From Reyranellaceae bacterium (GTDB lineage: Bacteria; Pseudomonadota; Alphaproteobacteria; Reyranellales; Reyranellaceae), in NCBI GenBank assembly GCA_022844045.1, contig JALHMM010000004.1, positions 62,001 to 126,000 on the forward strand: 64,000 nucleotides of DNA. The letters run 5' to 3'. The notes under the pieces are model-generated. The model was given only the letters and a program-made list of their open reading frames with translations, was not told where the DNA came from and ran no database searches. The position numbers were made by a program, and so were the translations under genes. Shown here piece by piece: positions 23,817 to 39,926 of the stretch. Position 1 is the first letter of the stretch, and every line of letters starts with the position of its first letter.

Positions 23817-23893
23817 CCGGCTGCTCGGGCGACGCGTCACAGCGCCTCGCTGATCTGAAGCAGCGCTGAGCCGTCAGGATGCAGGAGATAGAA

Positions 23894-25275: not shown

Positions 25276-25294
25276 CAAGACGGTCGGGACCAGT

Positions 25295-26401
25295 ATGAGC
25301 GACGCACAGACCGAAGCGCCGCAGACCCGCCCAAAGCGATTTTCGCGACGGCGGCTTCGCGCTGCGCTGCTCGCGTTGGTGCCCTTGGCTGCCATCGCGG
25401 GCGGCGCCTATTGGTACATATACGGTGCGCGCTACGTTTCGACCGACAACGCTTACGTAAAGTCGGCGAAGGCGACTATCTCGGTAGAAGTGTCCGGACG
25501 CATTGCGGCCTTGCTGGTGGGCGAGAACGAAACGGTCCGCGCCGGTCAGCCGCTTCTGAAGATCGAGGACGAAGTGTACCAGATCGCCTTGTCGCGCGCC
25601 GAGGCCGAAAAGGCAACCGTGATCGCGCGGCTTGACGCGTTGCGCGCCCAGATCAGGCAGAAGCGCGAGGAATTGAAACTGGCCGGCATTTTGGTGAGTT
25701 ACGCTGAGCGCGAGTATGACCGCGGGGCGACGCTCGCCGAGCGGAACGTCGTGAGCGCCTCTAAGCTGGACGAGATCAGGAACCGCCTGGACACCGCCCG
25801 GCAGCAAATGGCGATCGTGCGACACGAGATCGAGCGTTTGATTGTGGATCTCGGCGGCGACGAATTGGCTCCGGCGGACCGGCATCCGGCCGTCAGGCAA
25901 GCACAGGCCATGATCGACGAAGCACGCGTCGCGCTGGAGCGCACGAAGGTTGTGTCGCCGGTCGACGGTATCGTGTCTCGCGTCGATACAATTCGCCCCG
26001 GAGACTACGTCCGCCCCGGCATGCCGCTATTCTCGGTGGTCGCGGAGAATCAACAGTGGATCGAAGCGAACCTTAAGGAAACGGACCTCACCAGGGTTGT
26101 GCCCGGACAACGTGTCGAGGTGACCATCGATACCTTCTCAGGCGTCAAGCTCCTGGCCGAAGTGCAGAGCGTCGGTGCCGCGACAGGCGCGGAGTTCGCA
26201 CTCATCCCACCGCAGAATGCGAGCGGCAACTGGGTCAAGATCGTCCAGCGGATTCCGGTTCGCATCCGCATTCTGGAAAAGCGCGGCGTCCCATTGCTGC
26301 GGGCAGGTATGAGCGCGCAAGTGACTATCGACACCGGCTTCAATCGGCCGTTGCCGGGCCCGATCGCATGGGCGATGGGACGTGCGGGCGGCGGCCAGTG
26401 A
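25295..26401 (+). CDS. HlyD/EmrA-family membrane fusion protein
   Basis: A 368-residue periplasmic adaptor. One N-terminal TM helix (LRAALLALVPLAAIAGGAYWY) precedes the barrel-sandwich half-motif YVSTDNAYVKSAKATISVEVSGRIAALLVGENE, a coiled-coil hairpin, then VVSPVDGIVSRVDTIRPGDYVRPGMPLFSVV. The DNAYVK motif is characteristic of EmrA. It links the MFS pump to an outer-membrane channel, which is not encoded here. It is 19 bp after marR. Confidence 0.92.
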   Translation: MSDAQTEAPQTRPKRFSRRRLRAALLALVPLAAIAGGAYWYIYGARYVSTDNAYVKSAKATISVEVSGRIAALLVGENETVRAGQPLLKIEDEVYQIALSRAEAEKATVIARLDALRAQIRQKREELKLAGILVSYAEREYDRGATLAERNVVSASKLDEIRNRLDTARQQMAIVRHEIERLIVDLGGDELAPADRHPAVRQAQAMIDEARVALERTKVVSPVDGIVSRVDTIRPGDYVRPGMPLFSVVAENQQWIEANLKETDLTRVVPGQRVEVTIDTFSGVKLLAEVQSVGAATGAEFALIPPQNASGNWVKIVQRIPVRIRILEKRGVPLLRAGMSAQVTIDTGFNRPLPGPIAWAMGRAGGGQ

Positions 26402-27900: not shown

Positions 27901-28227
27901 GCATAGATTTATCGATAGATTGGCAACGTATCCCTGAAGGCAGCACGATCTGAAGAACTGGAAGTACGCCAGCTTTTCATGCCGCAAAGGCCGAGCGATC
28001 GGGGCTAGATTCTGTCACCCTTTTCACCCGCCGCCCCTTGTCGATGTTTGATGGCGGGAGCAAGAGTCTCGTCGGCCTCGAGGCCGGCTATATCCGCCCC
28101 CAGGGCGACTCGATACTGAGGGTCGATACGTTGATATCGCCGCCGCGGCGAGACAGCACGAGGACGTCGCTTCACCTGTGGTTCGACGTAAGGGCACAGC
28201 CGGCACATCGGGCAGTCGGGGATTCAC
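27901..28227. other. Intergenic region, no gene recognised
   Basis: No ORF here resembles a protein and no clear hairpin was seen. The stretch separates the efflux operon from a truncated PTS gene, and base composition changes shortly after it. It probably contains or adjoins the junction between chromosome and mobile element. Confidence 0.4.
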
Positions 28228-28368
28228 ATGATCGGCATGGTGCTGGTGACGCACGGCGGGTTAGCGCGCGAATTCCTCGCAGTACTGGAGCATGTAGTTG
28301 GTCCGCAGAAGCAGGCGGCCTTTGTTCTCGCGCGTGTCGCGGCCGGGGAGCGCCCCCAAGCATCATAA
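28228..28368 (+). pseudogene. Truncated PTS EIIA (mannose-type) gene
   Basis: The first 29 codons, MIGMVLVTHGGLAREFLAVL then EHVVGPQKQ, match the N-terminus of the alphaproteobacterial EIIA-Man protein, with the phosphoryl-accepting His9 in VTHG. After GPQKQ the sequence turns into an unrelated 17-codon tail ending at TAA 28366-28368, where about 100 further residues are expected. The usual neighbours (hprK, rapZ, HPr) are missing. The gene was cut by an insertion or deletion at about 28315, marking a rearranged junction. Confidence 0.7.
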
Positions 28369-29021
28369 TCGTTTTACATTTAAGGATGCCTCATCAGCCG
28401 AGTTCGAGGGGGCGCTCGGCTGTGCGACAGCCATCCTTGACAAGGAAAAGGCCGGGACACATAGTTCCGTCGCTCACCTACGTTTTTCGCGATGGCCGTC
28501 AGCCAGTGCGGAAGCCAACGACCCCGAGGCGACAACCTCGGGTTTTTTTATGTTGGCGCTGCGGCGACTCTCGGTCCCAGCTCGGTGGTATCAAGATACA
28601 GCGATGGAAAAACGAAACAAAAGTCGAATCATACATCATTGATCTGATTCAACTCGCCGGCGAGCTTTTGGCTGATGATAATTGGCGTCGAAATTTAGAC
28701 CGTGTCACCGCCGTGGCCTCTGAGGACTGCTGCGACGGCAAGCTGACTCGCCTCATGTCACAGCGTGTTGCGGCATGTCTGCACGGGTTGAAGCGGCATC
28801 CTCCGGTCGTCAGTGCGAATGGCGATGCCAAGCTGATCGTGTGGCGGCTATCCGTCGAAGCCGGGCGCGGTTCCGCTTCCGGTTCATTGAGACCTCAGAT
28901 GGATGTGAGGGAACGCGGCGCTATGCCGGGTCCACTTCCCATTGTACCGCGTCGGTCGCTTCGCCTGGTCGAGCCGGGGGACAACCATTTCCTGCGCGCG
29001 CATGAATGGTCATGCAAGAGG
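28369..29021. other. Left part of the mobile element, no recognised gene
   Basis: About 650 bp with a plus-strand terminator at 28523-28549. A plus-strand open frame at about 28600-29160 (containing ESYIIDLIQLAGELLADDNW) reads partly protein-like but lacks a convincing start and known homology. The left end of the element should lie here or further left; I found no copy of the tRNA-Arg att sequence. Confidence 0.4.
28523..28549 (+). terminator. Rho-independent terminator
   Basis: Stem CCCGAGG, loop CGACAA, stem CCTCGGG, then seven T. No gene assigned upstream on the plus strand explains it, so it may end an unrecognised small transcript of 28.37-28.52 kb. Confidence 0.75.
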
Positions 29022-29044
29022 AAGCCCCGCAGAATGCAGGGCTT
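29022..29044 (-). terminator. Hairpin terminator after the 29168-29377 gene
   Basis: The minus strand reads AAGCCCTGCATTCTGCGGGG then CTTCC; the stem of 8-9 bp has a 3-nt loop and a pyrimidine-rich tail. It lies about 120 bp after the last minus-strand gene. Confidence 0.5.
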
Positions 29045-29167
29045 AGGAACGCTCCACTCGATCAAAGGATCATCCGAATTGCGCGCGTGGATGGGAGCTA
29101 GGATGCACGGCTCATGGCCGTGTCCTTTGAACGGGGTTGGGTTACTTCGCCTTCCCGTCTAGGCGCA

Positions 29168-29377
29168 TCACTGCGGAAGCTGATGAGGCTCATCCCGCTT
29201 TGCGATCTCACGGCCTAGTTGCCGCGCGATCATCAGGGTTACGGAGGCGACGGAGCTGTACGGCCCGTGCCAGTCGTCCTCCGCGTAGGTCTTCCGGTAG
29301 AACAGGCCGCGTGGCCTCACTTCGACCGAGAAGCCTGCGAGGGCGTAGACCCGCTTGGCGTTGCTGATCATGCGCAC
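29168..29377 (-). CDS. Small hypothetical protein of the mobile element
   Basis: A 69-residue protein (MRMISNAKRVYALAGFSVEV and so on, with WHGPYSSVASVTLMIARQLG). It starts by overlapping the end of the DUF932 gene by 10 bp, so the two are translationally coupled. There is no domain I can name and no cysteines. The family is unknown; such small partners often follow DUF932 genes in plasmids and phages. Confidence 0.55.
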   Translation of the reverse strand: MRMISNAKRVYALAGFSVEVRPRGLFYRKTYAEDDWHGPYSSVASVTLMIARQLGREIAKRDEPHQLPQ

Positions 29378-30075
29378 ACCGCGTCGATGATGGTGTGGAG
29401 ATCGGCCGTGGCCTTCGGGTTCTCCGCGACCTTGCCGGTCAAGGCAAACGTCGCGGCATTGAAGAGACGCCAGCCGGTCTTGCCGCCCCAGTCATGAGCG
29501 GGGCGCTGCCACTGCTCATGTACGTCGGCGATCCTCTGCACGCCAATTATCTCCTGCCTAAACATCTCCATGATGGCGTGATCGGCCCGCTCGTCGGCAA
29601 CATCGGTTGCCTGGTAGCGGTCGATCTTCACCTTCTGCGCTTCGCGATGCGTGGCGAGCGGTTCCACGATCTCGCCGATGAGACCGGGGAGGTCGCGCTT
29701 GAGGTTGAGCGTGTGCTTGCGCTTGATGACGTGATCGCCGGCGAAGGCGAGGTTGTCACAGACGAAGACACGCGAGCCGAAGCTGATGCCGACCGGGAAC
29801 TTCTTGTCGTGCGAGTTCCGCAAGCCGACCATATCGTCGTAGCCGGTGTACGGGCTCTTGAGGCAGAGGACGCCGAAGAAACGGGCGCCGTCCGGCGTGA
29901 TGCCGAAGTGCTGATCCGTCACCTGGTGCCCGTAGTACCCGAGGGCGTGGGCCACGAGATCGACCACGCGGAAGTGCGGGATCGGGACGTGGGTTGCGGT
30001 TGGTTCGGGTAGAGCGAGCTCGCGGAGAGCTCCGTATTCGACCGGGTTAGCCCCGGCATGCAGTATCAGTGACAA
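29368..30075 (-). CDS. DUF932 phage/plasmid-like protein
   Basis: About 235 residues. It shows the DUF932 core THVPIPHFRVVDLVAHALGYYGHQV, GARFFGVLCLKSPYTGYDDMVGLRNSHDKKFPVGISFGSR then VFVCDNLAFAGDHVIKRKHT, and the C-terminal WRLFNAATFALTGKVAENPKATADLHTIID. The TTG at 30075 (reading MSLILHAGANPV) has GAGGAGAGG upstream and gives the usual N-terminus; an ATG at 30102 is the alternative. DUF932 proteins occur on plasmids, phages and integrative elements, where their role is not established. Confidence 0.88.
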   Translation of the reverse strand: MSLILHAGANPVEYGALRELALPEPTATHVPIPHFRVVDLVAHALGYYGHQVTDQHFGITPDGARFFGVLCLKSPYTGYDDMVGLRNSHDKKFPVGISFGSRVFVCDNLAFAGDHVIKRKHTLNLKRDLPGLIGEIVEPLATHREAQKVKIDRYQATDVADERADHAIMEMFRQEIIGVQRIADVHEQWQRPAHDWGGKTGWRLFNAATFALTGKVAENPKATADLHTIIDAVCA

Positions 30076-30151
30076 GGAACCTCTCCTCTTCGCTAAGAAC
30101 ACTCGGCTGAGTGCTCTATGGCGAGGGGGAGTGGGTGCTGCTTACAGTGTA

Positions 30152-30568
30152 CTACACACCGTCAATGATCCGCTTCCGGCTGGTCTCATATTCGTCTGCG
30201 GTGATGAGGTCTTTTCCCCGGAGCACCTGGAGCTCTGTCAGTCGCTCCTCTGTACACTTCGCTTCCGGGCGGTGAAGGCGTGGAGGTTAACCTTTGGCAT
30301 AGTCCACTTGATCTCAGGTAGACCCATAGAGAGATATGCTAGTCCTGCGTGGAGCCAAGCGACGAGCACCTGTGCGACATACATGCCGTCACAATGCGCC
30401 TGGTATCCTCGGCATTCAAAAAACAGGGCGCGGACCGCTAATACCAACAACGATGCCAACAACGATGATGTGCCACCAGGCGCGATTAAAGAACGCGGCT
30501 AAGGCGTACATCAGTCCGAATGAGAGAAAGATACTCCCGACATCGAAGAAGAGCGCGATTTCAAGCAT
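30152..30568 (-). pseudogene. Small membrane protein with SHOCT-like tail, broken reading frame
   Basis: Minus-strand coding signal runs through this stretch in more than one frame. It begins MLEIALFFDVGSIFLSFGLMYALAAF (ATG 30568), a TM segment ending at 30416. A second frame from TTG 30462 continues with LASLLVLAVRALFFE and ends at 30238. The end, stop at 30152-30154, reads ERLTELQVLRGKDLITADEY then ETSRKRIIDGV, a SHOCT-type helix pair, but has no start codon of its own. A tandem ATCGTTGTTGG duplication sits at the first overlap. Either it is a frameshifted gene or two short ORFs beside a fragment; the first is more likely. Confidence 0.45.
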
Positions 30569-30594
30569 GGTGTCCCCCCGTTGGCGAGCATACC

Positions 30595-30622
30595 AAAAAA
30601 AAGCCCCGCCGAAGCGGGGCCT
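30595..30622 (-). terminator. Rho-independent terminator
   Basis: On the minus strand GCCCCGC-TTCG-GCGGGGC is followed by nine T. It lies between the 57-residue basic protein gene and the small membrane protein gene and ends the former. Confidence 0.85.
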
Positions 30623-30691
30623 TGAAAGTGGGGTAGCTTTACTGGCGCCACCAGAGTTTTGCATCCTTCCAGATGCCTTGCTGATCGGGCA

Positions 30692-30865
30692 TTAGGCCCG
30701 TGCCCTTCGCACGAGCTCCTTGGCGGTGCGTACCCAGATGCCCTTGCTCATCTTGTGGCCGGAGCTCTTGGGCTGCTTGTCGCGGCGCGGCGTCTTGATG
30801 TACGCTTTGTGGAAGCCGGCGGCGTCCGACTTGGACCAGGTGAAGAGCCAATTTTTTTTCGACAT
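30692..30865 (-). CDS. Small basic hypothetical protein
   Basis: A 57-residue protein (MSKKNWLFTWSKSDAAGFHK ... GHKMSKGIWVRTAKELVRRARA) rich in Lys and Arg. AGAAGGAGGACGAC stands immediately before the ATG, an unusually strong ribosome site. A terminator follows at 30595-30622, so it is a single-gene unit. It may bind nucleic acid, judging only from charge. No family was recognised. Confidence 0.65.
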   Translation of the reverse strand: MSKKNWLFTWSKSDAAGFHKAYIKTPRRDKQPKSSGHKMSKGIWVRTAKELVRRARA

Positions 30866-30989
30866 GTCGTCCTCCTTCTGTGATGGACGACACGCAAGCT
30901 AAGCGCATTTTGAACCGAGTCACGATGTCCATACGGCCCTGAGCGGCATGTGCGCTATGGAGCGTCTTGGTGCGTCATCACGAAATGTT

Positions 30990-31020
30990 AAAAAGAAACC
31001 CCCGCACGATGGCGGGGGTC
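30990..31020 (-). terminator. Rho-independent terminator
   Basis: On the minus strand GACCCCCGCCATCGTGCGGG continues GGTTTCTTTTTAAC; the stem is CCCCCGC/GCGGGGG with a T-rich tail. It ends the operon of small genes that reads 32077 to about 31123. Confidence 0.85.
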
Positions 31021-31122
31021 TCAATGTCTGCGTTAGGTGCTCATGCAAGCGCGGGTCACGATCCCAGAGAGCGTTACCGGTCGTGTCTCCGCGGTGCGAG
31101 CTCGCGCAGGCTCCGTCAGTCG

Positions 31123-31687
31123 CTACCAACTCGACGAATAGAAGATGCCGTTAACCAATCCCTCCTTGATGTCCGTCAACATTTGAGCGGCCCAAGCGCG
31201 CGTGCGTACCACCTCTTCGAGAATACCATTCGTCGTACTCTGGTAAGCCGAAAAAGCAGCCCTCTCTCGTCGGGAGCAATGCCTTTGCTACGGTCGCGTC
31301 TTCGATCACCTTGCCGGGTTCCCGCTGGTAAATCCGCTCTCGGTTTTCGTTGTACGTGTAGCCGTTCGCAACCATTCCATCGACGAGCTTTGATGCTGCA
31401 ATCACTTTCTCGCAGACCTCTAGTAGCTCACGAATTTTCTCTGGTTTAACGCGGCACTCACCACAATCATCAACGCCACTCTGCACATTGTCGACGAACC
31501 ATCCGTGGATCTGATTCGCTTTACGCCATTCCATCACTTCTTCATCGACGCTTGATATACGATCTGTCTGGAGACCTGCGACGGGCTTGCCGCCGCGAAA
31601 GACACGAACCGAGTAACGCTTCTCTGGAGATTCGTGGTCCCATTGCTTCACATAATGCCTCCTGTGCGCGTACATATCTAAGCCCAT
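31123..31687 (-). pseudogene. Phage-type MGLDMY-family protein with C-terminal frameshift
   Basis: The uninterrupted frame (31151-31687, 178 residues) begins MGLDMYAHRRHYVKQWD, the signature of a family common in phages, and has FRGGKPVAGLQTDRISS and EVMEWRKANQIHGWFVDNVQ. After YDEWYS it ends in an unlikely Arg/Gly-rich tail. In another frame the same DNA continues EEVVRTRAWAAQMLTDIKEG then LVNGIFYSSSW and stops at 31123-31125. An ending of the type FYYxSSW is what this family normally shows. A one-base slip near 31210 therefore breaks or mis-reads the C-terminus. Confidence 0.7.
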
Positions 31688-31872
31688 AGTCTTTCGATTA
31701 GTTCCTTGGTCGCTGCGTCTCCGTGGCAGCGCAAGTACGCTATTAAGTTTTCCGTTCTCTCAGCAAACGTGTTCGCATCGAGCGGACGGTCGTTCGTAGA
31801 GACGATCTCTACAGCTTCTTTGAGCAATTCGATTGCTCGCTCGTGAAAGTAGTCTTGTATGTGTCCTTTCAT
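31678..31872 (-). CDS. Small hypothetical protein
   Basis: A 64-residue helical protein (MKGHIQDYFHERAIELLKEA, then VEIVSTNDRPLDANTFAERTENLIAYLRCHGDAATKELIERLWA). Its last codons overlap the start of the MGLDMY gene by 10 bp, and it lies 10 bp after the 31883-32077 gene, so all three are one operon. No family was recognised. Confidence 0.6.
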   Translation of the reverse strand: MKGHIQDYFHERAIELLKEAVEIVSTNDRPLDANTFAERTENLIAYLRCHGDAATKELIERLWA

Positions 31873-31882
31873 CGTCCTTTTG

Positions 31883-32077
31883 TTAGAGTTTAATTTTGCT
31901 GAGGTCAGCCCGACCGTCTTTGATCATTTCCACTAAGAGTGCATCACCCTTCTCACTCACGAAATCGACAAACTCGATTTCGCCGAAGCCGCACACGCAA
32001 TCTCCCGGATGCACGTACCGGAATTGCTGTAAGCGGTAGTCGACGGTGTACCCCTTGTACGTTGGCAGTAGTCCCAT
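31883..32077 (-). CDS. Small hypothetical protein
   Basis: A 64-residue protein (MGLLPTYKGYTVDYRLQQFR and so on, with EIEFVDFVSEKGDALLVEMI), mixed alpha/beta by composition. An AAAGGACT sequence precedes the ATG. It is the first good gene of the minus-strand small-gene operon. The pattern YKGYTVDYRLQQFRYV resembles short phage proteins, but I cannot name a family. Confidence 0.6.
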   Translation of the reverse strand: MGLLPTYKGYTVDYRLQQFRYVHPGDCVCGFGEIEFVDFVSEKGDALLVEMIKDGRADLSKIKL

Positions 32078-32088
32078 AGTCCTTTCGG

Positions 32089-32214
32089 TTAGCTGTTAAA
32101 GTGCCGGGGCTTGATCCAGCACCGGAAGCCTGCCTCTTTTCCGGCATCTGAGTCACCGGGCGGCAAGGGCGTCTTGAGCGCTCCTGGGCGGTATGAGCGC
32201 TCCTGGTCACTCAC
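32089..32214 (-). CDS. Possible 41-residue peptide
   Basis: A GTG-started frame reads MSDQERSYRPGALKTPLPPG, then DSDAGKEAGFRCWIKPRHFNS. It has no clear ribosome site, follows the terminator at 32223-32247 and precedes the small-gene operon by 12 bp. Coding potential is only suggested by its ordinary amino-acid composition. Confidence 0.25.
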   Translation of the reverse strand: MSDQERSYRPGALKTPLPPGDSDAGKEAGFRCWIKPRHFNS

Positions 32215-32222
32215 CACTAAAT

Positions 32223-32247
32223 AAAAAAAACCCCCAATAGCGGGGGC
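32223..32247 (-). terminator. Rho-independent terminator after the primase-like gene
   Basis: On the minus strand AAGCCCCCGCTATTGGGGG is followed by a run of eight T. It lies about 60 bp after the stop codon at 32307. Confidence 0.85.
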
Positions 32248-32306
32248 TTATTCGATCGCAGGGGAGCTTCTTTACGTCTCCTTATCCTGCTCCTCGGGAG
32301 CTGTGG

Positions 32307-32963
32307 TCACGCTCTGCGCGGCAGTGCGACCACGTTTGTCGGTGCTGGTATCCAGCGCGGGGGGATTTTGAGGCTCTCGCCCTTGCGGAAACCGAGCCAT
32401 CCCGCGACCTGGCCGGTGGGCCAGCGCACGGGGATGTAGAGCCACTTCTGTTGAGGGTGAAAGCCGAACGCGAGCTCCTTCGCCATCGCTTCATCGAGGC
32501 CGAGCTCGCGGAGGTCTTCGTGATAGACGAGACGCGACGCGAACTTATCCGGATCAAAGGCGTACGTTGACGCCTGCGGTGCTTGACGAGGATTCGCCGG
32601 AACAGTATCCCTATCGGGAACGGTCTCCCTGTGGGATTTGGTATCCCTATCGGGAACCACTGTTCCGAATTGCTCCTTGATGAAGTGCGCAGCCTCTTGC
32701 TGGCTGAGCTCCATGCAGTGAGCAACGAGGCCGATGCGGTCTCCTCCTTCATTCGTCGCCCAACACTTGAAGACGCCCATCGTCTGACTGCGGTTCGCCA
32801 TTGCGCTTGGCGTGATCGAGAGCGTGCGATCGTCGCCATCATGCACCGGACACTTGCACCTCATGTTCGCGGTGCCTTTGACCGGCAGATTGAGCATGCG
32901 CACGAGATCGATGATCTCGGCGAGCGGATAGACCGTCTGGAAGTCGAGATACGGCAGCTTCAT
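32307..32963 (-). CDS. CHC2-type primase zinc-finger protein, no TOPRIM domain
   Basis: A 218-residue protein. The N-terminal part resembles the DnaG CHC2 zinc domain: MRCKCPVHDGDDRTLSI, then VFKCWATNEGGDRIGLVAHC with C38, H41 and C67 as likely ligands. The middle contains a short repeat (VPDRDT twice, with SHRET between). The C-terminal half (LGLDEAMAKELAFGFHPQQK) resembles the segment that precedes TOPRIM in plasmid primases, but the catalytic TOPRIM and helicase parts are absent. GGAGGAGG precedes the ATG. It may act in replication of the excised element or be a remnant of a larger primase. Confidence 0.75.
   Translation of the reverse strand: MKLPYLDFQTVYPLAEIIDLVRMLNLPVKGTANMRCKCPVHDGDDRTLSITPSAMANRSQTMGVFKCWATNEGGDRIGLVAHCMELSQQEAAHFIKEQFGTVVPDRDTKSHRETVPDRDTVPANPRQAPQASTYAFDPDKFASRLVYHEDLRELGLDEAMAKELAFGFHPQQKWLYIPVRWPTGQVAGWLGFRKGESLKIPPRWIPAPTNVVALPRRA
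32605..32658. repeat. Three 18-bp tandem repeats inside the primase-like gene
   Basis: Units GTATCCCTATCGGGAACG, GTCTCCCTGTGGGATTTG and GTATCCCTATCGGGAACC lie head to tail. Each contains a small palindrome of the type TCCC-N3-GGGA. Units 1 and 3 differ at only one base. They encode the hexapeptide repeats of the protein and look iteron-like. Confidence 0.7.
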
Positions 32964-33048
32964 CACCTCCTCCGTATGAACAGCCTGTCCTCATTTTAGC
33001 ATTTAACTAGATGGTATAGTGAGGATAGGCACAGAAGAGGAGGACCGC

Positions 33049-33231
33049 ATGTCTACTGGCCGTAAGCCCGATTTCCGGGCATTCGTCTCGCGCAAGAACG
33101 GCGACAAAACCTACTACAACGAGATCGGTGTGGCCTGGCACGTCGGCAGCGACGGCATCTCGATCAAGCTTCATGCTCTGCCGACTGATGGCGAGCTCGT
33201 GCTATTCCCGCCGAAAGCCGACGACAAGTAG
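33049..33231 (+). CDS. Small conserved plasmid/phage-type protein
   Basis: A 60-residue protein (MSTGRKPDFRAFVSRKNGDK, then TYYNEIGVAWHVGSDGISIKLHALPTDGELVLFPPKADDK). It belongs to a small family seen on plasmids and integrative elements, whose members share the pattern KPxF...W..IG.AW......I.L.ALP.DG.. as I recall it; the function is unknown. ATG 33049 has AGGAGGACCGC upstream; the ORF also extends to 33019. It is the only clear plus-strand gene of the element, and a -10-like TATAGT lies about 33 bp upstream. Confidence 0.65.
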   Translation: MSTGRKPDFRAFVSRKNGDKTYYNEIGVAWHVGSDGISIKLHALPTDGELVLFPPKADDK

Positions 33232-33241
33232 CGTTGAGCAC

Positions 33242-33268
33242 ACCGCGTCCCTCATGGGGCGCGGTTTT
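33242..33268 (+). terminator. Rho-independent terminator between convergent genes
   Basis: ACCGCGTCCC-TCAT-GGGGCG then CGGTTTT forms a stem of about 9 bp followed by four T. It lies right after the plus-strand 60-residue gene and touches the end of the convergent 33267-34226 gene, so it may work in both directions. Confidence 0.7.
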
Positions 33269-34226
33269 ACCTATTCAGAAATACCGGACCCTTCACGCTC
33301 TGCCACGGATCGGTAAAGAGATCGGTCATGAGTGGCGGCACTTTCCATGTTTTGCTGTCGAAGTACGGCTTTGCTCTTAAGAGATAACGATCGGGAAAGC
33401 GGGAGACGGCATTCACCATCTCAAGCATCGCCGGGATCTCACTCTCATAGAGCGTGACGAAAAGCACCATTGGCTTTCCCTTGATGCCGAAGTGCGCTTC
33501 ATAGAGAAGCTGATCGAACACGATGTCGTAGCGACGCACCTTCTCTTCGAGAGAGGAGTGCTTCTTCCCGTACGTCCAAGTGTCCTCGGTCGATCGATTC
33601 GCCTCGAAGAAATAGGTTTTGTAGATCCGTTCGGTCGTCTGCCAACGGTAGAGGTCATCCATTTCAAGCCGGCGCTTGTCGGGAAGCGTGAGCATGAGCG
33701 GAGACTTCGCCTTCGCCGTTTCAGGCGGACACTTGGGATGGTCGAGCAGCTGATCCTTTGTGATCCACGTCCAACCGTGCTTTCTAACGGCGATCTTGAG
33801 CGAGGCACCTACGGTCGAGCGCATGAGCCTATGGAGCTCGTGCTCGCCATCGGTGACGTATTGGCGATGTGCACGGCCTTCGCTCTTGAGAAGCCGATAG
33901 CCGGTGTCGGTGAGGCCGAAGATGTTTTCCGTCCGCCACTCATCGCGGGTCTTGATCAGGTCCGGCGCAAAGAGGACCGGCGCGCGCCTGCTGATCACAC
34001 CATTCTTGTCCGGTACGGGGTACGGCTCGTGCTTCATCCAGTTGCGGCGCTTGCGGTACTTCGTCGTCTCCTTGATGTCGAGCAAGGGCGCAAAAAAGCG
34101 GCCTGGCAGAAGGGGAAATTCCTGCGCCTCCGCGCACGTCTCGATGTCGCGGTCTTGCCGTTTGAGTACCTTACCGCTCGGTTGTGGAGGTCCCACGCGA
34201 GCACGGCGCTTGATTTTCTCCGCCAT
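33267..34226 (-). CDS. Possible Replic_Relax-type plasmid relaxation/replication protein
   Basis: A 319-residue protein. A basic N-terminus (MAEKIKRRARVG) leads to RQDRDIETCAEAQEFPLLPG and a winged-helix-like segment (NIFGLTDTGYRLLKSEGRAH). A nuclease-like segment follows: RRLEMDDLYRWQTTERIYKT, then YFFEANRSTEDTWTYGKKHSSLEEKVRRYD and KPMVLFVTLYESEIPAMLEM. The order (DNA-binding, then a Glu/Asp-bearing core with E..RSTE) fits the replication-relaxation family found next to TraG-like ATPases. The similarity is from memory and moderate. It probably starts DNA processing for transfer or replication. Confidence 0.5.
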   Translation of the reverse strand: MAEKIKRRARVGPPQPSGKVLKRQDRDIETCAEAQEFPLLPGRFFAPLLDIKETTKYRKRRNWMKHEPYPVPDKNGVISRRAPVLFAPDLIKTRDEWRTENIFGLTDTGYRLLKSEGRAHRQYVTDGEHELHRLMRSTVGASLKIAVRKHGWTWITKDQLLDHPKCPPETAKAKSPLMLTLPDKRRLEMDDLYRWQTTERIYKTYFFEANRSTEDTWTYGKKHSSLEEKVRRYDIVFDQLLYEAHFGIKGKPMVLFVTLYESEIPAMLEMVNAVSRFPDRYLLRAKPYFDSKTWKVPPLMTDLFTDPWQSVKGPVFLNR

Positions 34227-34316
34227 AGTTTCGGAGATAATCGCGTAAGGCGATCCTGTCTCCGTTAGCCATAGTGTACAGGAGCGCCATGATGCTCGTG
34301 ATGCACCATGGGGAAA

Positions 34317-35852
34317 CTACCACTCGGTACTTTCTTCTTCCTCGCGTCGCTTTTTCGTCGGTGACGCGGGTTTCGGCTTCGGTGCCGGGGTCCGTACGGC
34401 CTGCTGTTGGATGCGCGGTGGATAGCCGCCGCGTTCCTCGCGTGACACCTCGACGGGCGGAGGCGGGAGTGGGACCGGGACCGGAGACGGCCTGTGCTTG
34501 ACGCCGTAGCGGTTCCGCATGCCCTGGCGCATTCCCTCAAACTCCGGCGCTTGCATGCGGGGCATGTTTTCAATGATGTCCTTTTGTGCCGAAAAGATAC
34601 CCGATCCCAGTTGCTCAACCAAAGTCACGAACTTGCCCTGGCCGCCTGGGTCATGCAGAAACTCAGGGGTGCAGTTAAGGGTGTCCGAGAGCTGCTTAGC
34701 ATCACCTCTACTTGCACCTCCCACCATTTTAATTGCTGTGTTGGCATCGATCGAATCGTACAAACCGGGAGCGGCATTGAGTTGCTGTAAATACTGATGA
34801 GCGAGTATAAGGCCCACGTTCCGTTTGCGAGCCTGTGAGAGCAGCAGCGCTAGCTGAGCGCCTGTGTGCTTAAAATATTCGTGGCACTCATCAATGATGA
34901 AATAGCAGGGTGTGTTCCGGGGATCTTCTGGATCGCGCTTCATAATCGCCTGGTACATCAGGCCGATAAAGAGCGCGCCCATGGTGGCCGAATCGGTGTC
35001 CCCCAGAACTCCTTTGTCGGTATCTAACAAAATCATCTGTCCGGCTTGCATGCCTCCGTATAGGTCAAGGCTCAAGTCCGGCTGGCAAAACATCCCGCCG
35101 AAAATCGGATTGATGATGAGCTGTTGCAGGCGACGACGAACTTCCTCTCTTGTGCTCTGATACTGGTCGGTCCTTTTCCCGGTAATATAATCTCGCGTAA
35201 AGAAGCCCTGCGCTTTGGGGTCTAACAGTGCGACCCACTCCCGGTGCTCTTCAAATCCCTCCTCAGTGAGGAGCTCAAGATAGGTATCCATCGTCGCGCC
35301 TGGGATAACCGTCATAAGCATCAAGAGGCTATCGAAGAGGAGACCTTGCTTGCCGGTAAGCTCCGCATCTTTGAGAAGGGAGCTCATGATGAAGCGGTAG
35401 GTCTCTCGAAGGTTCACCGTAAGCTCATAGGCCGCTTGTTTGTTGCCCGGCATATCGATCTTGAAAAAATTGAGAGCGATCGGATGCTCAATCTCCCACG
35501 GAACGACATGCATGAGGCGACGAGGGTGATCGCTCCATAGGGCGAGTTTTGCCAAGCGAGGAATTATTTGTCTCTGGCTATCCAAGACGACAATCGAACA
35601 CTCACCGGCGAGGATGCGTGGGATGTCCTGGTATATCAGCGTTTGAAGTGATTGTGTCTTCCCGTGACCACTACCACCTAGCAGCCAATGATGCCGGACA
35701 CGAGTAGCCTCTGGTATAGCTACCGGCGGCTTGTGCTGCTGGAGTGCCTGGAGGAATTTGCTACCCGCAGGATTTTCGCGGTTAGGACTGAGGAGATCGA
35801 GTATCCTGAGATCTGATTCGGTCGTCACAATCTGCGGCTGGATATAGATCAT
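34317..35852 (-). CDS. TraG/HerA-type P-loop ATPase, soluble, proline-rich tail
   Basis: A 511-residue ATPase. Walker A is GGSGHGKT (59-66), Walker B is CYFIIDECHEYF (D321, E322), and sensor-type LAHQYLQQL follows at about 350. It lacks a TM segment, and the C-terminus is a Pro/Lys-rich tail (PVPVPLPPPPVE...KPKPASPTKKRREEEE). It starts by overlapping the stop of the one-TM gene by 4 bp (ATGA). It shares the ARKRNVGLILAHQYLQQL pattern with the ATPase at 36270, so the element carries two related motor proteins. One may be the coupling protein and the other a packaging or processing motor. Confidence 0.8.
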   Translation of the reverse strand: MIYIQPQIVTTESDLRILDLLSPNRENPAGSKFLQALQQHKPPVAIPEATRVRHHWLLGGSGHGKTQSLQTLIYQDIPRILAGECSIVVLDSQRQIIPRLAKLALWSDHPRRLMHVVPWEIEHPIALNFFKIDMPGNKQAAYELTVNLRETYRFIMSSLLKDAELTGKQGLLFDSLLMLMTVIPGATMDTYLELLTEEGFEEHREWVALLDPKAQGFFTRDYITGKRTDQYQSTREEVRRRLQQLIINPIFGGMFCQPDLSLDLYGGMQAGQMILLDTDKGVLGDTDSATMGALFIGLMYQAIMKRDPEDPRNTPCYFIIDECHEYFKHTGAQLALLLSQARKRNVGLILAHQYLQQLNAAPGLYDSIDANTAIKMVGGASRGDAKQLSDTLNCTPEFLHDPGGQGKFVTLVEQLGSGIFSAQKDIIENMPRMQAPEFEGMRQGMRNRYGVKHRPSPVPVPLPPPPVEVSREERGGYPPRIQQQAVRTPAPKPKPASPTKKRREEEESTEW

Positions 35853-36310
35853 TTACCCATCTCCCGAAGGATGATCTGCATCACCTCTTGCATGCGAGTG
35901 TGATACCGCTCCGCGTAACCCGGAACCGCGATGCTATCGAGGCGCGATGCGCGATCGCCTGGGTTCAAAAAGTCGAGATCCGTTATGCCGAACTCGTCGA
36001 CGGCAATCTTCAGGATCTTGAGTGCAAAGGCTCTGGCTTCCGGGGTGAAGTTATACCCCTGCATATATCGATCGAGGTGAGCGTCAGTGACTTTCAATCC
36101 GCCAAAGAGTGTGACAAACGCATCACGCTTCTTGTCGATTGCGGCCTGGCGGAAGTCGGCTTCAAGCGCAGCGCGCTTCGTCTTCTCGCGCTCTTTCTCA
36201 TTCAAATGAAAAATATAATTGCCGAACCACATGCCGGCGATCGCAAGGATGGCTAATACCCATACGATGTTAACTAAGACGCCTCTTGCGTCGGGTGACA
36301 TTCCGTCCAT
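35849..36310 (-). CDS. Single-pass membrane protein between the two ATPases
   Basis: A 153-residue protein. A short N-terminus (MDGMSPDARG) is followed by one TM helix (VLVNIVWVLAILAIAGMWFG), a charged linker (EKEREKTKRAALEADFRQA) and a soluble C-terminal domain (VTDAHLDRYMQGYNFTPEAR). ATG 36310 has CGGGGAG five bases upstream; GTG 36316 is an alternative. It overlaps the upstream ATPase gene by about 40 bp and the downstream one by 4 bp. It is likely a membrane anchor for the ATPases, by position only. Confidence 0.65.
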   Translation of the reverse strand: MDGMSPDARGVLVNIVWVLAILAIAGMWFGNYIFHLNEKEREKTKRAALEADFRQAAIDKKRDAFVTLFGGLKVTDAHLDRYMQGYNFTPEARAFALKILKIAVDEFGITDLDFLNPGDRASRLDSIAVPGYAERYHTRMQEVMQIILREMGK

Positions 36311-37571
36311 GCGCACTCCCCGCCTTCACTGTCTCATTTTTCCGGGGAGGGAGTCGAGGGCGGGCGTAAAAGTCCCGCGTGCGTCGCTTCACGGCGCGCA
36401 TCCTGGCGAGCCCTTTCACCGGAACTGCTGGCGGGTGCATGGCGACCAACTCCGGCGTGCTGGGCGCGTCTCCGCGGCTGGTGCGGACGTAGGCGTAATA
36501 GTTCGATAGGGTCAGGAGCTCCTGCTCATTCACCGCAAAGAACCGGGCGAAGAGCTCGCTGTCGTACGGGCCGATTCGATAGGCGATCGTCGTGCCGACG
36601 TTGCCCATGATCGCCTGGGGAATGAGCTCGGGTAACTGATCGAGATACTGGTGCGCCAAAACGAGGTTGAGCCGGTACTTTCGAGCCTCGGATAGCATCG
36701 TGGCAAAAGCTGACGTGGTGAAGTTTTGAAACTCATCCACGTACAGGCTGAAATCCTGCCGCTGCTCCTCGGGAATTGTCTCTCGGTCCTGTGCTGCCTG
36801 GGCAAAGCCCGCTACGAGCAATGAGCCGAGAATGTCTGAGGGTGCGTCTCCCATGACCTTGGAGAGATTGCAGATGAGGATCTTCCGGTTATTGATGATG
36901 TAGGAAATGTCGATCGTCGAGGGTTGAGCAATGATGTCTCGGAGGATCGGATTGTACTCAAACTCCGCGACCTTGCTCGCGATCGGCTGTAGCGCCTCTC
37001 CCATGCTTCGCTTCGGGATGAGTTTGTAAATGTCCTCGGTCCAATATTTGGTGATCTCTGCGTCAGGGCATTGTGCAAGAAGCGTTGCACGGTACTCCTC
37101 GTCTAAGAGGAGGCGTGATAGATCGCCAAGGGTCGATCCCGGCACCTCCAACTGGAGGTGTATCGCCATCTTCATGATGACATCCATACGCGGCCCCCAC
37201 ACGTCTGCATATATGCGCTTGAAGGCCATGGTGATGATGGTCGCTAGCGTATGTTTGAAGAGCCGCGGCACACCCTTGTAGGGATTGTAGGTAGCGACCT
37301 TCTCGGGATGGAGTGGGTCGAGATAGATCACGTCCTTCATCCGCTCGGGCGGAATAAGTGCGGCGATCTGATCCGCGGTCTGTCCGTTAGGATCGAGAAA
37401 CGCAAAACCGCGCCCCGACTTGAGGTCGGCGAGCATCATGTTGACAAGCAGTGTTGACTTACCCGAGCCGGTCTGGCCGGGAACGTGAATGTGCTGTCGT
37501 CTTATTTTCGGGTCGAGGAAGATAGCATAGCCGTCTTTCTTCCGGCGCCCGATAGGGTAGCTGTACGGCAT
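36270..37571 (-). CDS. TraG/VirD4-like type IV coupling ATPase
   Basis: About 433 residues from ATG 37571 (MPYSYPIGRRKKDGYAIFLD). Walker A is PGQTGSGKST (about 31-40), then LKSGRGFAFLDPNGQTADQI. IYLDPLHPEKVATYNPYKGV and RQDFSLYVDEFQNFTTSAFA (Walker B D279, E280) follow. The ending LARMRAVKRRTRDFYARPRL is basic. The pattern is that of the TraG/TraD family with a C-terminal DNA-binding domain, common on mobile elements and in Patescibacteria. The N-terminal TM helices of VirD4 are absent, and the separate one-TM protein may replace them. The frame stays open to 37763, so the start is uncertain. Confidence 0.82.
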   Translation of the reverse strand: MPYSYPIGRRKKDGYAIFLDPKIRRQHIHVPGQTGSGKSTLLVNMMLADLKSGRGFAFLDPNGQTADQIAALIPPERMKDVIYLDPLHPEKVATYNPYKGVPRLFKHTLATIITMAFKRIYADVWGPRMDVIMKMAIHLQLEVPGSTLGDLSRLLLDEEYRATLLAQCPDAEITKYWTEDIYKLIPKRSMGEALQPIASKVAEFEYNPILRDIIAQPSTIDISYIINNRKILICNLSKVMGDAPSDILGSLLVAGFAQAAQDRETIPEEQRQDFSLYVDEFQNFTTSAFATMLSEARKYRLNLVLAHQYLDQLPELIPQAIMGNVGTTIAYRIGPYDSELFARFFAVNEQELLTLSNYYAYVRTSRGDAPSTPELVAMHPPAVPVKGLARMRAVKRRTRDFYARPRLPPRKNETVKAGSAHGRNVTRRKRRLS

Positions 37572-37940
37572 ACGCCACGAACCGACCCAGCCAGCCAGTG
37601 CTTGCCCCGTGGAAGGTGACTGGCCGGTGCGATATGGGTTCGTAGCGTGTACGGTCCAACAAAGAACTCTGTGGGTATTGTCGCATGGGACTGTCCGCCC
37701 ATGTCGTCGTGGAGCGTGAGCGGACGACCAAAACCGTTTCCCGTCGCGATGTCCTTTAGGCAAGCAAGTGGCGTAGTTCGACTCTATGAACGAGAGTGAA
37801 TAGGGCGAAAAAGGGTTTTGGTCGTCCGCGATAGCGGCGATCGATCATGGGCGGCAATGGTGATATAGCGCCATTTTTTAAATGGTCGCCGTATTCCGAT
37901 AGGGCCTTACAGTAGGGTCTAGCGTTAGGCCCCGGATCGT
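37572..37940. other. Non-coding region with long inverted repeat, candidate origin or oriT
   Basis: No supported gene lies between the coupling ATPase and the next gene. The stretch holds a 16-bp perfect inverted repeat (37720-37735 and 37814-37829), a short dyad ACTCT-N7-AGAGT between its arms, and an AT-rich palindrome CCATTT-TTT-AAATGG at 37871-37885. This is the layout expected of an origin of transfer or replication. Confidence 0.45.
37720..37829. repeat. 16-bp inverted repeat, arms 78 bp apart
   Basis: GCGGACGACCAAAACC at 37720-37735 is exactly complementary to GGTTTTGGTCGTCCGC at 37814-37829. It lies immediately upstream of the coupling-ATPase gene. Confidence 0.85.
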
Positions 37941-38312
37941 CTAGGCACTGAGGGCGTATTTCCCGCCATCGGCGGTGATCTTCCCGGCCTTCTTGAGGGC
38001 GGCGAGGGTGTTACTAAGTGCCTGCTCTTTGGACTTTTCGCCCTTGATTGAGAGCGCGGTGATGAGGTCTGCGCGCGAGTGTGGAGCGGCCTTGAGTAGG
38101 TCGAGAATGAGGGTACGCTTGGACTGTCGGCGCTCCGTGCCGGCCTTCGCGGTCGGACCCTTCAGGGCCGCCGCGTATGCTTCGAGCGCGGTAAGGGAGC
38201 GCTGTAGGGATGCGCGCCTGGCCTGGAGCTCATTAAACTTTGTATCGAGCTCAGCCTTCTCAGCCAATAGGCGCTCGCGCTCTTGCTTGGTGAACTGTTC
38301 GGCGTGATCCAT
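37941..38312 (-). CDS. Coiled-coil plus winged-helix DNA-binding protein (hypothetical)
   Basis: A 123-residue protein starting MDHAEQFTKQERERLLAEKA. The first half is a coiled coil (LDTKFNELQARRASLQRSLTA). The second half, SKRTLILDLLKAAPHSRADL then ITALSIKGEKSKEQALSNTLAALKKAGKI, looks like a winged helix. CAGGGGGGACC precedes the ATG. It is placed next to the putative origin and probably regulates or organises it. The family is not known to me. Confidence 0.7.
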   Translation of the reverse strand: MDHAEQFTKQERERLLAEKAELDTKFNELQARRASLQRSLTALEAYAAALKGPTAKAGTERRQSKRTLILDLLKAAPHSRADLITALSIKGEKSKEQALSNTLAALKKAGKITADGGKYALSA

Positions 38313-38361
38313 AGGTCCCCCCTGTGATGTAATGGTTATATTCCGCTTTGCGGGAGGTAGC

Positions 38362-38391
38362 AAAAAGAAGGCGGCCGTTTGGCCGCCTTCT
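38362..38391 (-). terminator. Rho-independent terminator after the AlpA-like gene
   Basis: On the minus strand AGAAGGCGGCC-AAAC-GGC then CGCCTTCTTTTTGC forms an 11-bp stem and a T-rich tail, 28 bp after the stop at 38419. Confidence 0.85.
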
Positions 38392-38418
38392 AAGTGTGTC
38401 CCTTCCGGGGTCACACGA

Positions 38419-38613
38419 TCACTTCATCGATTGCGTATTCTTCCCGTACTCGTAAATCTCAGACGCTTTGTAGAAGACCCGCCGACCGCGGAAGAACGAC
38501 TTGGGAAAACCCAGATGTGCGTACTCCTTGTCGTTGGTCCATCTACCGAGTTGCGGCCTTGAAATAGAGAACAGGAAACAAACTTCAGAGATTGATAACC
38601 AGAGCCTATCCAT
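38419..38613 (-). CDS. AlpA-like helix-turn-helix (excisionase-type) protein
   Basis: A 64-residue MerR-like fold protein: MDRLWLSISEVCFLFSISRP, then QLGRWTNDKEYAHLGFPKSFFRGRRVFYKASEIYEYGK. The order (ISEVCFLFSISR, W, FPK, G.R.FY...EI) is the AlpA/excisionase signature. It is encoded beside the integrase, as expected for a recombination directionality factor. It forms its own unit with a terminator. Confidence 0.85.
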   Translation of the reverse strand: MDRLWLSISEVCFLFSISRPQLGRWTNDKEYAHLGFPKSFFRGRRVFYKASEIYEYGKNTQSMK

Positions 38614-38683
38614 CGTGATGCCTCAGAATTGAGGACATCGCGATGTCCTAGGTTGGACCTAGGCGGAGCGATTGTAGCAGCAA

Positions 38684-38706
38684 GGAAAAGGCCGCGCTAG
38701 GCGGCC
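38684..38706 (-). terminator. Terminator overlapping the integrase stop
   Basis: On the minus strand GGCCGC-CTAGC-GCGGCC then TTTTCC; the stem overlaps the last integrase codons. Confidence 0.7.
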
Positions 38707-39755
38707 ATGAGTTTTGCGATGTGGTCGGTGTAGACCTTGATGCACTCCCTGAGCTCTTCGAGATAATCGTGCTGGTCATAAACGAGCTCGATGGGCGACT
38801 GCACGCCTGAGACATGGTTGATGTAGCGCTCGCCTAGCTCTCTCGGGAGCCGGAGCCGTGCCCACTTCGTGCGGAAGGTCCTGCGAAGGTCGTGAAGCGT
38901 CCACGGGACCATTTTGTCCGCGCCGGCAATATGGTTGTGGATAGCGAGGTCGAGATCCTTCTTGCTCTTGCTCCATCCGCTCCACGCTCGATCCTGGCCT
39001 AGTAGCTCGATCGTGTGCCCGGTGACGGGGAAGGTGTGGTCTCGGTGGTTCTTGGTGTGCTGCCCATCGATGAAGGCGAGGTCGCCAGTCAGGACGATGT
39101 GTTGCACTTCATTCCGCCTGGCTCCCGTAAGGGCCAAAAGTTTGACTGTGGTGCCGTAGGCCGTGTCGGGCGCTGCACGCCACACCTGGATCAATTCCTC
39201 GTCCGTGAGCACCCTCTTCCGGGCCTTGGACTTCCGGACGGTGAGCGTCACGGCCGGGTTGATCTTGAGGTAGCCGCCGTTGACGCCGAACTTAAAGAGG
39301 ATCTTGGAGACGGCGATCGCGTGGAAGCGAACCGAAGGGGTGAAATCCTTGACCGCGTTCGCAATCGTCGTCGGCGTCGCATGTAGAAGGTTCTGCGGCA
39401 GTTTGACGCGTCGCAAGAGCCCTTCGTAGTCCTGGCAGGTCTTTGCTCGCAGGCGGGCTTTGCAGTCCGCCAGGAAGAGCGTTTTGAGCTCGTCATAGGG
39501 CACCGGGTCGACAATGCCCATTGTGCGCTCCGCTAGGAGCCTCTGTGCCACTTCCCGCGCCTTCGCGAGGGAAAGGATAGGCCACTGACCGAGTGTTTCC
39601 CTGCGGCGATCGGTGCCGTAGGTGACGACAAAGGTTTTGGTCCCGCCTTGCGAGACGCGGACGCCGAAGCCTTTGATGCTGTCGTCGAGATAGGTCTTCT
39701 GGCCCGAATCAGGCGGCTTCAAAGAACGGATAGAGAGGTCGGTTAGTCTCGCCAT
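38697..39755 (-). CDS. int: Tyrosine-type site-specific integrase
   Basis: A 352-residue phage-type integrase. An N-terminal DUF4102-like arm-binding domain (LTDLSIRSLKPPDSGQKTYL, GFGVRVSQGG) precedes a core-binding domain and the catalytic domain: TGARRNEVQHI (first Arg), TLHDLRRTFRTKWARL (His-x2-Arg), NHVSG (His) and ELVYDQHDY with the nucleophilic Tyr. ATG 39755 (MARLTDLS) is chosen over an in-frame ATG three codons upstream. It is encoded 127 bp from the tRNA-Arg fragment, so it is the enzyme of this attachment site. Confidence 0.93.
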   Translation of the reverse strand: MARLTDLSIRSLKPPDSGQKTYLDDSIKGFGVRVSQGGTKTFVVTYGTDRRRETLGQWPILSLAKAREVAQRLLAERTMGIVDPVPYDELKTLFLADCKARLRAKTCQDYEGLLRRVKLPQNLLHATPTTIANAVKDFTPSVRFHAIAVSKILFKFGVNGGYLKINPAVTLTVRKSKARKRVLTDEELIQVWRAAPDTAYGTTVKLLALTGARRNEVQHIVLTGDLAFIDGQHTKNHRDHTFPVTGHTIELLGQDRAWSGWSKSKKDLDLAIHNHIAGADKMVPWTLHDLRRTFRTKWARLRLPRELGERYINHVSGVQSPIELVYDQHDYLEELRECIKVYTDHIAKLMAA

Positions 39756-39838
39756 AGGCTCCAAACTCCTTGCGCTAGAGTGTGCGCGATGGACAGTCTG
39801 GAGCTACTTTATCACGTCATTTCAAAGACTTAACAGAT

Positions 39839-39869
39839 GCCCATGTTGACCATGACGCCCATGTTCACC
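39839..39869. repeat. Direct repeats, possible integrase arm or Xis sites
   Basis: GCCCATGTTGACC (39839-39851) and GCCCATGTTCACC (39857-39869) are 13-bp direct repeats with an 18-bp period and one mismatch. They lie between the integrase start and the tRNA-derived att core. Confidence 0.5.
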
Positions 39870-39881
39870 GCCTGTTCATAG

Positions 39882-39926
39882 CTACGGATCAGGAGGTTGG
39901 GAGTTCGAATCTTCCTGGGCGCGCCA
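39882..39926 (+). repeat. attR: 3' fragment of tRNA-Arg(ACG)
   Basis: These 45 bases fit positions 32 to 76 of a tRNA: anticodon loop CTACGGA with ACG, stem TCAGG, variable AGGTT, T-stem GGGAG with loop TTCGAAT and CTTCC, acceptor strand TGGGCGC, G73 and CCA. No matching 5' half precedes it. Such fragments are left when an element integrates into the 3' part of a tRNA gene. The fragment is oriented so that host DNA lies to the right and the full tRNA should lie at the left end. Confidence 0.85.

Follow-up and report, generated by a model that had tools for sequence, protein, structure and literature searches.

A phage-type early gene set with two TraG/HerA-superfamily motors at the integrase end of a tRNA-Arg island in a Reyranellaceae bacterium

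We analyzed a 64,000-nt stretch of DNA, here called the window, from contig C4 of a Reyranellaceae bacterium (JALHMM010000004.1, positions 62,001 to 126,000; assembly GCA_022844045.1), focusing on a segment that holds a tyrosine integrase gene (int), two ATPases of the TraG/HerA superfamily (ATP1 and ATP2), a protein with one transmembrane (TM) helix, and a divergent relative of Replic_Relax nucleases (RR). In gene content and order, the segment (29145-39764) corresponds to the integrase-proximal early arm of a lineage of temperate tailed phages. An earlier note on this DNA had described 28228-39926 as a compact integrative element; these 11.7 kb are instead the integrase end of a 60.5-kb island in tRNA-Arg(ACG). 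The genes named there (int, AlpA-like, coiled-coil, two ATPases, one-TM, primase finger and DUF932) are genuine; the boundaries are not. Relatives were read in nine whole contigs from scans of IMG/VR (G418-G426), which are metagenomic or isolate predictions, and in two genomes of the same genus (G002 and G003).

Genes of the segment

All nine genes from int to DUF932 are on the minus strand, and the reading frames of ATP1 and the one-TM gene, and of the one-TM gene and ATP2, overlap. The features of the segment, from the integrase leftward, are as follows.

38697..39764, minus strand: tyrosine integrase (int); Arm-DNA-bind_3 above cut-off, phrog_1 at E = 9e-28, 39% identity to the integrase of phage contig G420
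38419..38613, minus strand: AlpA/excisionase-like DNA-binding protein; HTH_17 under cut-off, homologue adjoining int in phage contig G426
37941..38414, minus strand: coiled-coil protein, possibly with a winged helix; start of the gene uncertain; phage contigs G425, G424, G420 and G426 have homologues placed between int and the motors
36270..37763, minus strand: ATP1, soluble TraG/HerA-superfamily ATPase, homology from about 37580; TraG-D_C and T4SS-DNA_transf slightly above cut-off, 47% identity to ATP1 of phage contig G424
35849..36316, minus strand: one-TM protein, presumed membrane anchor of ATP2; one predicted TM helix, layout as in locus L306 (3908-4462)
34317..35852, minus strand: ATP2, coupling-protein-type ATPase without the N-terminal ~200 residues of its relatives (alignment A2); TrwB_AAD_bind above cut-off, predicted model nearest to TrwB
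33267..34226, minus strand: RR, divergent relative of Replic_Relax (MOB_C-type) nucleases; relatives match PF13814, alignments A3 and A5, residue counts
33019..33231, plus strand: 70-aa gene, opposite in strand to RR and the primase gene that flank it; 66% identity over 61 aa to the same-place open reading frame (ORF) of phage contig G425
32307..32966, minus strand: CHC2 zinc-finger, primase-type protein; Zn_ribbon_DnaG slightly under cut-off, phrog_47 at E = 5e-12
31151..31687, minus strand: 178-aa protein with a phage-contig relative; 43% identity over 157 aa to a G420 protein
29368..30102, minus strand: DUF932 protein; slightly above the Pfam cut-off, 55-62% identity to five phage contigs and the G002 prophage
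29168..29377, minus strand: 69-aa protein after DUF932, at the end of phage-like DNA; 82% identity to a G002 prophage protein, DNA match stopping at 29145

On its resemblance to the same-place phage gene, the plus-strand gene at 33019-33231 is assigned to the module set.

Phage contigs with the same gene order

The IMG/VR contigs carry the series int-(cc)-(ATP1)-ATP2-RR-primase-DUF932, where cc is the coiled-coil gene. A scan with DUF932 gave 225 loci, of which the best 80 were considered: 34 with at least 53% identity (L275-L306, L314, L346) were counted as one clade, and the other 46, at 43% identity or less and with no ATP2, RR or primase shown among them, were set aside; L355-L363, from another query, were left uncounted. 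Within this clade, all 21 contigs with a visible ATP2 have the order ATP2-RR-primase-DUF932 on one strand. Sixteen of the 21 carry an integrase, nine ATP1 and 15 a terminase or portal gene; six of them (G420-G425) had been read earlier and used to train the models, and 15 are new. Over the whole clade, terminase or portal genes were detected on 25/34 contigs.

PHROG matches identify both terminase and portal in G422, G424, G425 and G426; in G423 they identify a terminase, and the portal match is weak. G419, G420 and G421 share the virion-gene clusters of G422-G426; G418, without a virion-gene cluster, is treated as an island. None of the nine contigs has a VirB10 match. G424 has a 127-bp direct repeat at its ends, suggesting that it is probably a complete circular genome, and it holds one integrase of the window family and the ATP1-small protein-ATP2 triad, together with genes for terminase, portal, a major head and a minor tail protein. 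The ends of G423 share at least 60 bp, set as a repeat of ~125 bp. Moreover, in the same-genus genome G002 a stretch beside tRNA-Arg(CCT) contains an alpA-like gene, ATP2, RR, a 69-aa plus-strand ORF, a primase-type gene, DUF932, the counterpart of the window's 69-aa gene and a terminase gene; no ATP1 match was found in G002.

ORFs of the island match the nine contigs only within 29368-39764 (phmmer, E 1e-5). Outside these limits no island ORF matched any of their proteins, those of the virion genes (terminase, portal, head or tail) included, and unrelated virion genes were not searched. The island has a single DNA match with the G002 prophage (71% over 706 bp); it stops at 29145, just short of where the terminase is expected. 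What marks a temperate tailed phage of this lineage, its integrase followed by the early genes in order, is thus found in the window segment. That a prophage simply adjoins an unrelated island is unlikely, given the single window-family integrase in terminally repeated G424 and the constant order in 21 contigs.

Among deposited phages, a query with the ATP2 of G422 finds one distant Microcystis phage, and a query with the RR of G425 finds none. A phage lineage with int-ATP1-ATP2-RR-primase-DUF932 was undescribed in the titles and abstract openings searched, with preprints and most subscription journals outside their reach.

Attachment site and extent of the island

The extent of the insert is set by the first of the following features.

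39882..39926, plus strand: right-hand attachment repeat, a 45-bp copy of the 3' end of tRNA-Arg(ACG); 100% match, tRNA by ARAGORN, insert-free sites in G003 and G002
28228..29144, no strand: left end according to the earlier note; no phage similarity and no attachment repeat found
1..28227, no strand: remainder of the 60.5-kb insert within the window, between the attachment repeats; from the ORF list

The repeat at 39882-39926 matches C4:41412-41456 of the same genome in 45/45 bases, and this counterpart is the end of an intact tRNA-Arg(ACG) gene (C4:41380-41456, ARAGORN) 20.6 kb left of the window start. ARAGORN finds no tRNA within the window, and the pair just described is the sole tRNA-end duplication found, with none lying within the window. 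In G003, DNA identity left of the tRNA is 90% until the tRNA ends; after a further 136 bp it resumes (91%) with the DNA to the right of window position 41251; in G002, flank identities are 86% and 89%, with a longer gap between them than in G003. The tRNA-end match and the insert-free sites in the two relatives therefore place the insert at window -20588 to 39926. Both hallmarks of a tRNA island are present, a tRNA 3'-end repeat on either side and relatives in which the site is empty, except for 1.3 kb at the right flank. An 11.7-kb element ending at 28228 was rejected, since the only tRNA-end duplicate is 60 kb away and none lies within the window.

Most other island genes, including those in 1..28227, look like metabolic cargo, with roles that we presume from their translations. 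The ~1.3 kb at 39927-41250, which separates the attachment repeat from the flank shared with G003, has no counterpart in that genome; its ORFs we take to be methyltransferase-like and Rrf2-like. At L127 (G005:C1:1420001-1440000), an integrase much like that of the window (E = 2e-133) is found with a type I restriction-modification operon and an ATP1-type gene between a tRNA-Arg(ACG) and, ~17.7 kb away, an incomplete copy of the tRNA 3' end.

Two motors, an anchor and a nuclease

The two TraG/HerA-type motors that flank a one-TM protein in overlapping frames, as the earlier note had seen them, are borne out by Pfam matches and one predicted helix. ATP1 scores under the Pfam cut-off of DUF87, and ATP2 matches TrwB_AAD_bind at 26.7 bits (cut-off 20.5). 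Walker A and B motifs are intact in ATP1 (GQTGSGKST, LYVDEF) and in ATP2 (GGSGHGKTQ, FIIDE), so neither ATPase looks degenerate, a possibility that the earlier note had itself raised. ATP2 thus has the TrwB-like nucleotide-binding domain with Walker A and B that defines type IV coupling proteins (TrwB/VirD4). The N-terminal anchor that such proteins carry in the same chain is missing, as no TM helix is predicted in either ATP1 or ATP2. The predicted model of ATP2 (predicted local distance difference test score, pLDDT, 74) is nearest to TrwB at E = 1e-12, with HerA, DndH and VirB4 behind at ~1e-8. Judged by this predicted fold, ATP2 is of the coupling-protein family, with its presumed anchor in a separate chain.

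N-terminal TM helices were found in 13 of the 21 ATP2 proteins of the clade phages (simple hydropathy scan, with ORF starts set mechanically), and in L306 an ATP2 lacking a TM helix is overlapped by 4 bp by a one-TM gene, as in the window. Since the anchor lies within ATP2 in these 13 relatives, the one-TM protein and ATP2 of the window probably equal one anchored protein, making ATP1 a real second motor. The one-TM protein has no homologue by phmmer among the ORFs fetched. The ATP2 relatives in alignment A2 share a proline-rich, acidic C-terminal tail (window 34317-34340), often ending in Trp or Leu, which is possibly a docking tail.

In the phylogenetic tree, ATP1 and ATP2 form two clades (100/100), and window ATP1 is sister to the ATP1 of phage contig G424 (100/99). 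The ATP2 part of the tree mixes phage and island copies: island G041 branches with phage G425 (100/100), island G022 with G002, G419 and G422 (96/91), and island G394 with G421 and G423 (99/98), G394 being a long row whose placement the tool flagged as unsure. This interleaving suggests a conjugation-type module that lives in phages, with a like gene set recurring in plasmid-like islands.

Resemblance to HerA raised a different account of ATP1, or of both ATPases, as part of a HerA-kind anti-phage defence system carried by the element. The PADLOC model mad8 matches ATP1 (E = 1e-17) and ATP2 (2e-10), several HerA models match weakly, and the ATP1-type gene of G005 lies 14 bp from the type I restriction-modification operon. 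But ATP1 stands directly in the int-ATP2-RR series both in the window and in 9/21 clade phages, and no nuclease or sensor partner of known HerA systems was matched among the five window proteins tested, so we consider defence very improbable. ATP1 was also tried as a packaging ATPase on the basis of a weak match to phrog_2666, and this was dropped because the ATP1 phages scanned (G424, G425 and G426) have their own terminase. In other phage-like contigs (L229-L235), a 400-aa ATP1-like ATPase of ~25-28% identity lies in a different, constant neighborhood, near a terminase in L234.

Window RR has no Pfam match within E 0.01, PF13814 included, and no NCBIfam match; it is classed with Replic_Relax because the members of alignment A3 match PF13814 (10/12). 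The possible Replic_Relax protein of the earlier note is therefore upheld through its relatives and not by the window copy itself. Across 35 sequences, D190 and E208 are each kept in 34 and in the window, and position 210 is D in 28, E in six and N in the window only; the Agrobacterium plasmid relative L148, outside the 35, has Y there. This odd residue suggests decay of window RR; it could mean that the nuclease is weakened, that its site differs or that the draft assembly is in error here. The predicted RR model (pLDDT 83) has among its weak best matches in the PDB XisH and MunI (0.02 to 0.14) and Card1 (up to 0.25), beside unrelated folds. Window RR is at most a candidate member of MOB_C.

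Two repeats were seen in the DNA around these genes. A 20-nt inverted repeat between the coiled-coil gene and ATP1 (37720-37739 and 37810-37829, 95% complementary, 70 nt apart) is a possible operator or origin-of-transfer (oriT)-like site. The primase-type gene contains 3.3 copies of an 18-bp tandem repeat (32599-32657); an iteron origin at this place was dropped, as none of ten relatives scanned has a comparable array.

Relatives in islands, plasmids and Patescibacteria

In a class-wide sample of 385 genomes, with carriers assigned by reading match lists, ATP1-type genes were found in 10, ATP2-type in nine and RR-type in seven. For ATP2, 20 genomes matched at E 0.001, of which three ATP1-type and eight weak matches were set aside; for ATP1, 11 matched and G354 was set aside as a cross-hit to ATP2. 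Alignment A1 was built partly from genomes of the tested set and may favor refinding them. Leaving out the window genome, ATP1 occurs in nine and ATP2 in eight of 384 genomes, with both in six, against 0.19 expected (p = 5e-10). ATP1 and ATP2 share a contig in these six genomes, as they do in G017, G022 and G036, at distances of ~0.5 to 43 kb. The order ATP1-small protein-ATP2 recurs in G040 and phage contig G424, so the triad to which the earlier note drew attention is found elsewhere and is not unique to the window, and its proposal of a dedicated, largely undescribed two-motor DNA-processing module without a channel gains from the co-occurrence.

A coupling-type ATPase stands directly before a replication-relaxation protein on plasmids of Sulfitobacter, Embleya, Bacillus subtilis and Agrobacterium. 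Such pairs favor reading the segment as part of an integrative mobilizable element (IME) with its own coupling protein (the one-TM protein and ATP2) and a MOB_C-type relaxase (RR), which would use a helper type IV channel as CloDF13 does, with phages using the module for their own ends. In the same direction point the presence of ATP1, ATP2 and RR in islands without phage genes, the TrwB-like model of ATP2, and the pairing of MOB_C with an own coupling protein in CloDF13 and two streptococcal IMEs, as described in the sources cited below. However, the DUF932, 69-aa, 70-aa and 178-aa genes adjoin phage genes and are unseen in islands, window ATP1 groups with phages, and window RR has its odd residue at a usually acidic position. 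We therefore hold this reading, which the earlier note had also offered, to be unlikely, at somewhat better than one chance in five, yet a rival to be taken seriously.

The 136-kb plasmid NZ_CP081110.1 of Sulfitobacter mediterraneus (L142, L141), typed as non-mobilizable, carries both an ATP1-type gene and an ATP2-replication-relaxation pair. On the 35-kb Methylomagnum plasmid NZ_AP019788.1 (L143), an unannotated ATP2-like stretch is followed a few genes on by a CHC2 zinc-finger gene on the other strand. In the named-genome scan with ATP1, the 80 loci kept are mostly from Patescibacteria (36-44% identity), in which the ATP1 relatives (L022, L087, L017 and others) have a conserved place with a membrane-protein gene directly before or fused to them; their neighbors are presumably SecD-, SecF- and RpoD-like, judging from translations.

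Absence of a secretion channel

The earlier note saw no VirB-like channel, and this is confirmed: no VirB-like gene was recognized by eye in the island gene list, and neither VirB10 (PF03743) nor VirB4 (PF03135), the only two type IV secretion system (T4SS) families searched, has a match in the host assembly (91.9% complete). The mating channel that an integrative conjugative element would bring along (VirB4, VirB10) thus went unmatched in this assembly, and a conjugative element with a hidden T4SS was rejected for the same reason. VirB10 was unmatched in eight of 13 genomes searched (G003 being among the 13 as the empty-site genome only), and in the other five it lies at least ~50 kb from the module genes or on another contig.

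With its pair of motors, its anchor and no channel genes nearby, and with VirB10 distant or unmatched in the genomes just described, the set could be taken for a new transfer mode in which the motors pump DNA between cells without a type IV channel, as the earlier note had suggested. But no candidate for a pore was found, Gram-positive plasmid relatives lie near channel genes (PrgI; TcpD/TcpE), and the phage context accounts more simply for the missing channel. The proposal has no evidence of its own, and we give it hardly any credence.

Proposed origin and function

Overall, the segment is best explained as the early arm of a lost prophage that carries a nick-and-motor DNA-processing module, to which we assign a probability of about 0.6. 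Its origin from a phage arm is very probable, and nick-and-motor processing is, on balance, the function that we favor for the module; replication as its main role in phages is put forward tentatively, at slightly less than even odds. A prophage would have integrated at tRNA-Arg(ACG) and lost its late genes, with metabolic cargo now filling the space; in an alternative history, an island would have captured a phage early arm. After excision, RR as a relative of MOB_C-type nucleases would nick the element at a specific site, and ATP2, held at the membrane (in the window by the separate one-TM protein), would unwind or pump the nicked strand. The zinc-finger protein may help re-prime this strand, and ATP1 may be an optional second, soluble motor. 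The pair of relaxase and coupling protein could also let the DNA be mobilized through the channel of another element. We infer the functions named here, i.e., nicking, membrane-tethered unwinding or pumping, and priming, from the gene set.

Replication genes of phages usually sit between integrase and terminase. Since the phage set has this position, its main job would most likely be to start replication of the excised genome. An adjacent primase-type gene points the same way, as does the fact that the PHROG families shown for G424 and G422 included no further initiator or helicase.

Several observations weigh against this account as a whole. That no other replication genes were seen in G424 and G422 comes from a search that covered 48/88 remaining ORFs and showed 25 of 55 families, and a membrane-anchored ATP2 suits transport better than replication. 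The phages are known from predicted contigs alone, with growth never seen, and terminase or portal went undetected on 9/34 clade contigs. Window ATP2 is a long row without a firm tree position, and by percent identity it is closer to island than to phage copies. Lastly, the RR model has no PDB match at E 0.001, its best being E = 0.019.

Coupling proteins and MOB_C-type relaxases serve as conjugation markers. Here, many predicted temperate phages carry such a pair, frequently joined by a second motor, as a constant component of their early region. Either conjugation machinery thereby reaches into phage replication, or the boundary between phages and mobilizable elements becomes less sharp. Such markers may therefore label prophage remnants as mobilizable islands, and caution is warranted. 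The module is widespread and poorly described and straddles the phage-plasmid boundary, and the window copy itself is best read as a remnant. A bolder version, in which a phage lineage has its own relaxosome and coupling motors for nick-started replication plus hand-over to a conjugation channel, with ATP1 as a second motor of a novel type and with exchange of the module between phages and plasmid-like islands, seems to us improbable; if it were true, one genome would have two ways of moving, by virion and by mating.

Comparison with known systems

The TraG/DUF87-type ATPase of Patescibacteria, which includes the nearest ATP1 relatives in the named-genome scan, resembles the window in having a membrane-protein partner as a separate gene or fusion, and differs in being a chromosomal locus, not a mobile element. 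Some coupling proteins without a TM domain may pair with a membrane protein (PMC7431656), and in TraJ-TraI of pIP501 motor and anchor are in two genes, as the one-TM protein and ATP2 appear to be, but they are part of a full conjugation system (PMC7431656); pIP501 is likened by description only.

MOB_C relaxases are related to restriction endonucleases (PMC12857230), and PF13814 relaxases occur with VirD4 in 2/144 streptococcal IMEs (PMC5357655). In CloDF13-type plasmids the coupling protein is self-encoded, and mobilization depends on its TM domain (PMC7431656). The MobB-MobC pair of CloDF13 joins a MOB_C relaxase to a dedicated coupling protein and comes without a channel (PMC7431656, PMC12857230), in which it is similar to RR and ATP2; unlike the window set, it belongs to a non-integrated plasmid, MobB holds its own TM domain and there is one motor. 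This likeness, too, is by description only.

The temperate Bacillus phages called Tyroviruses were unmatched by ATP2 and RR queries in the phage collection and are likened by description only. They are 160-170 kb in size, and the available account of their gp17-gp18-gp19 region mentions no second motor, primase zinc finger or DUF932 (PMC9703825). As in the window, however, a type IV secretion-type protein there adjoins a replication-relaxation protein beside a tyrosine recombinase, a region that its authors term plasmid-like (PMC9703825).

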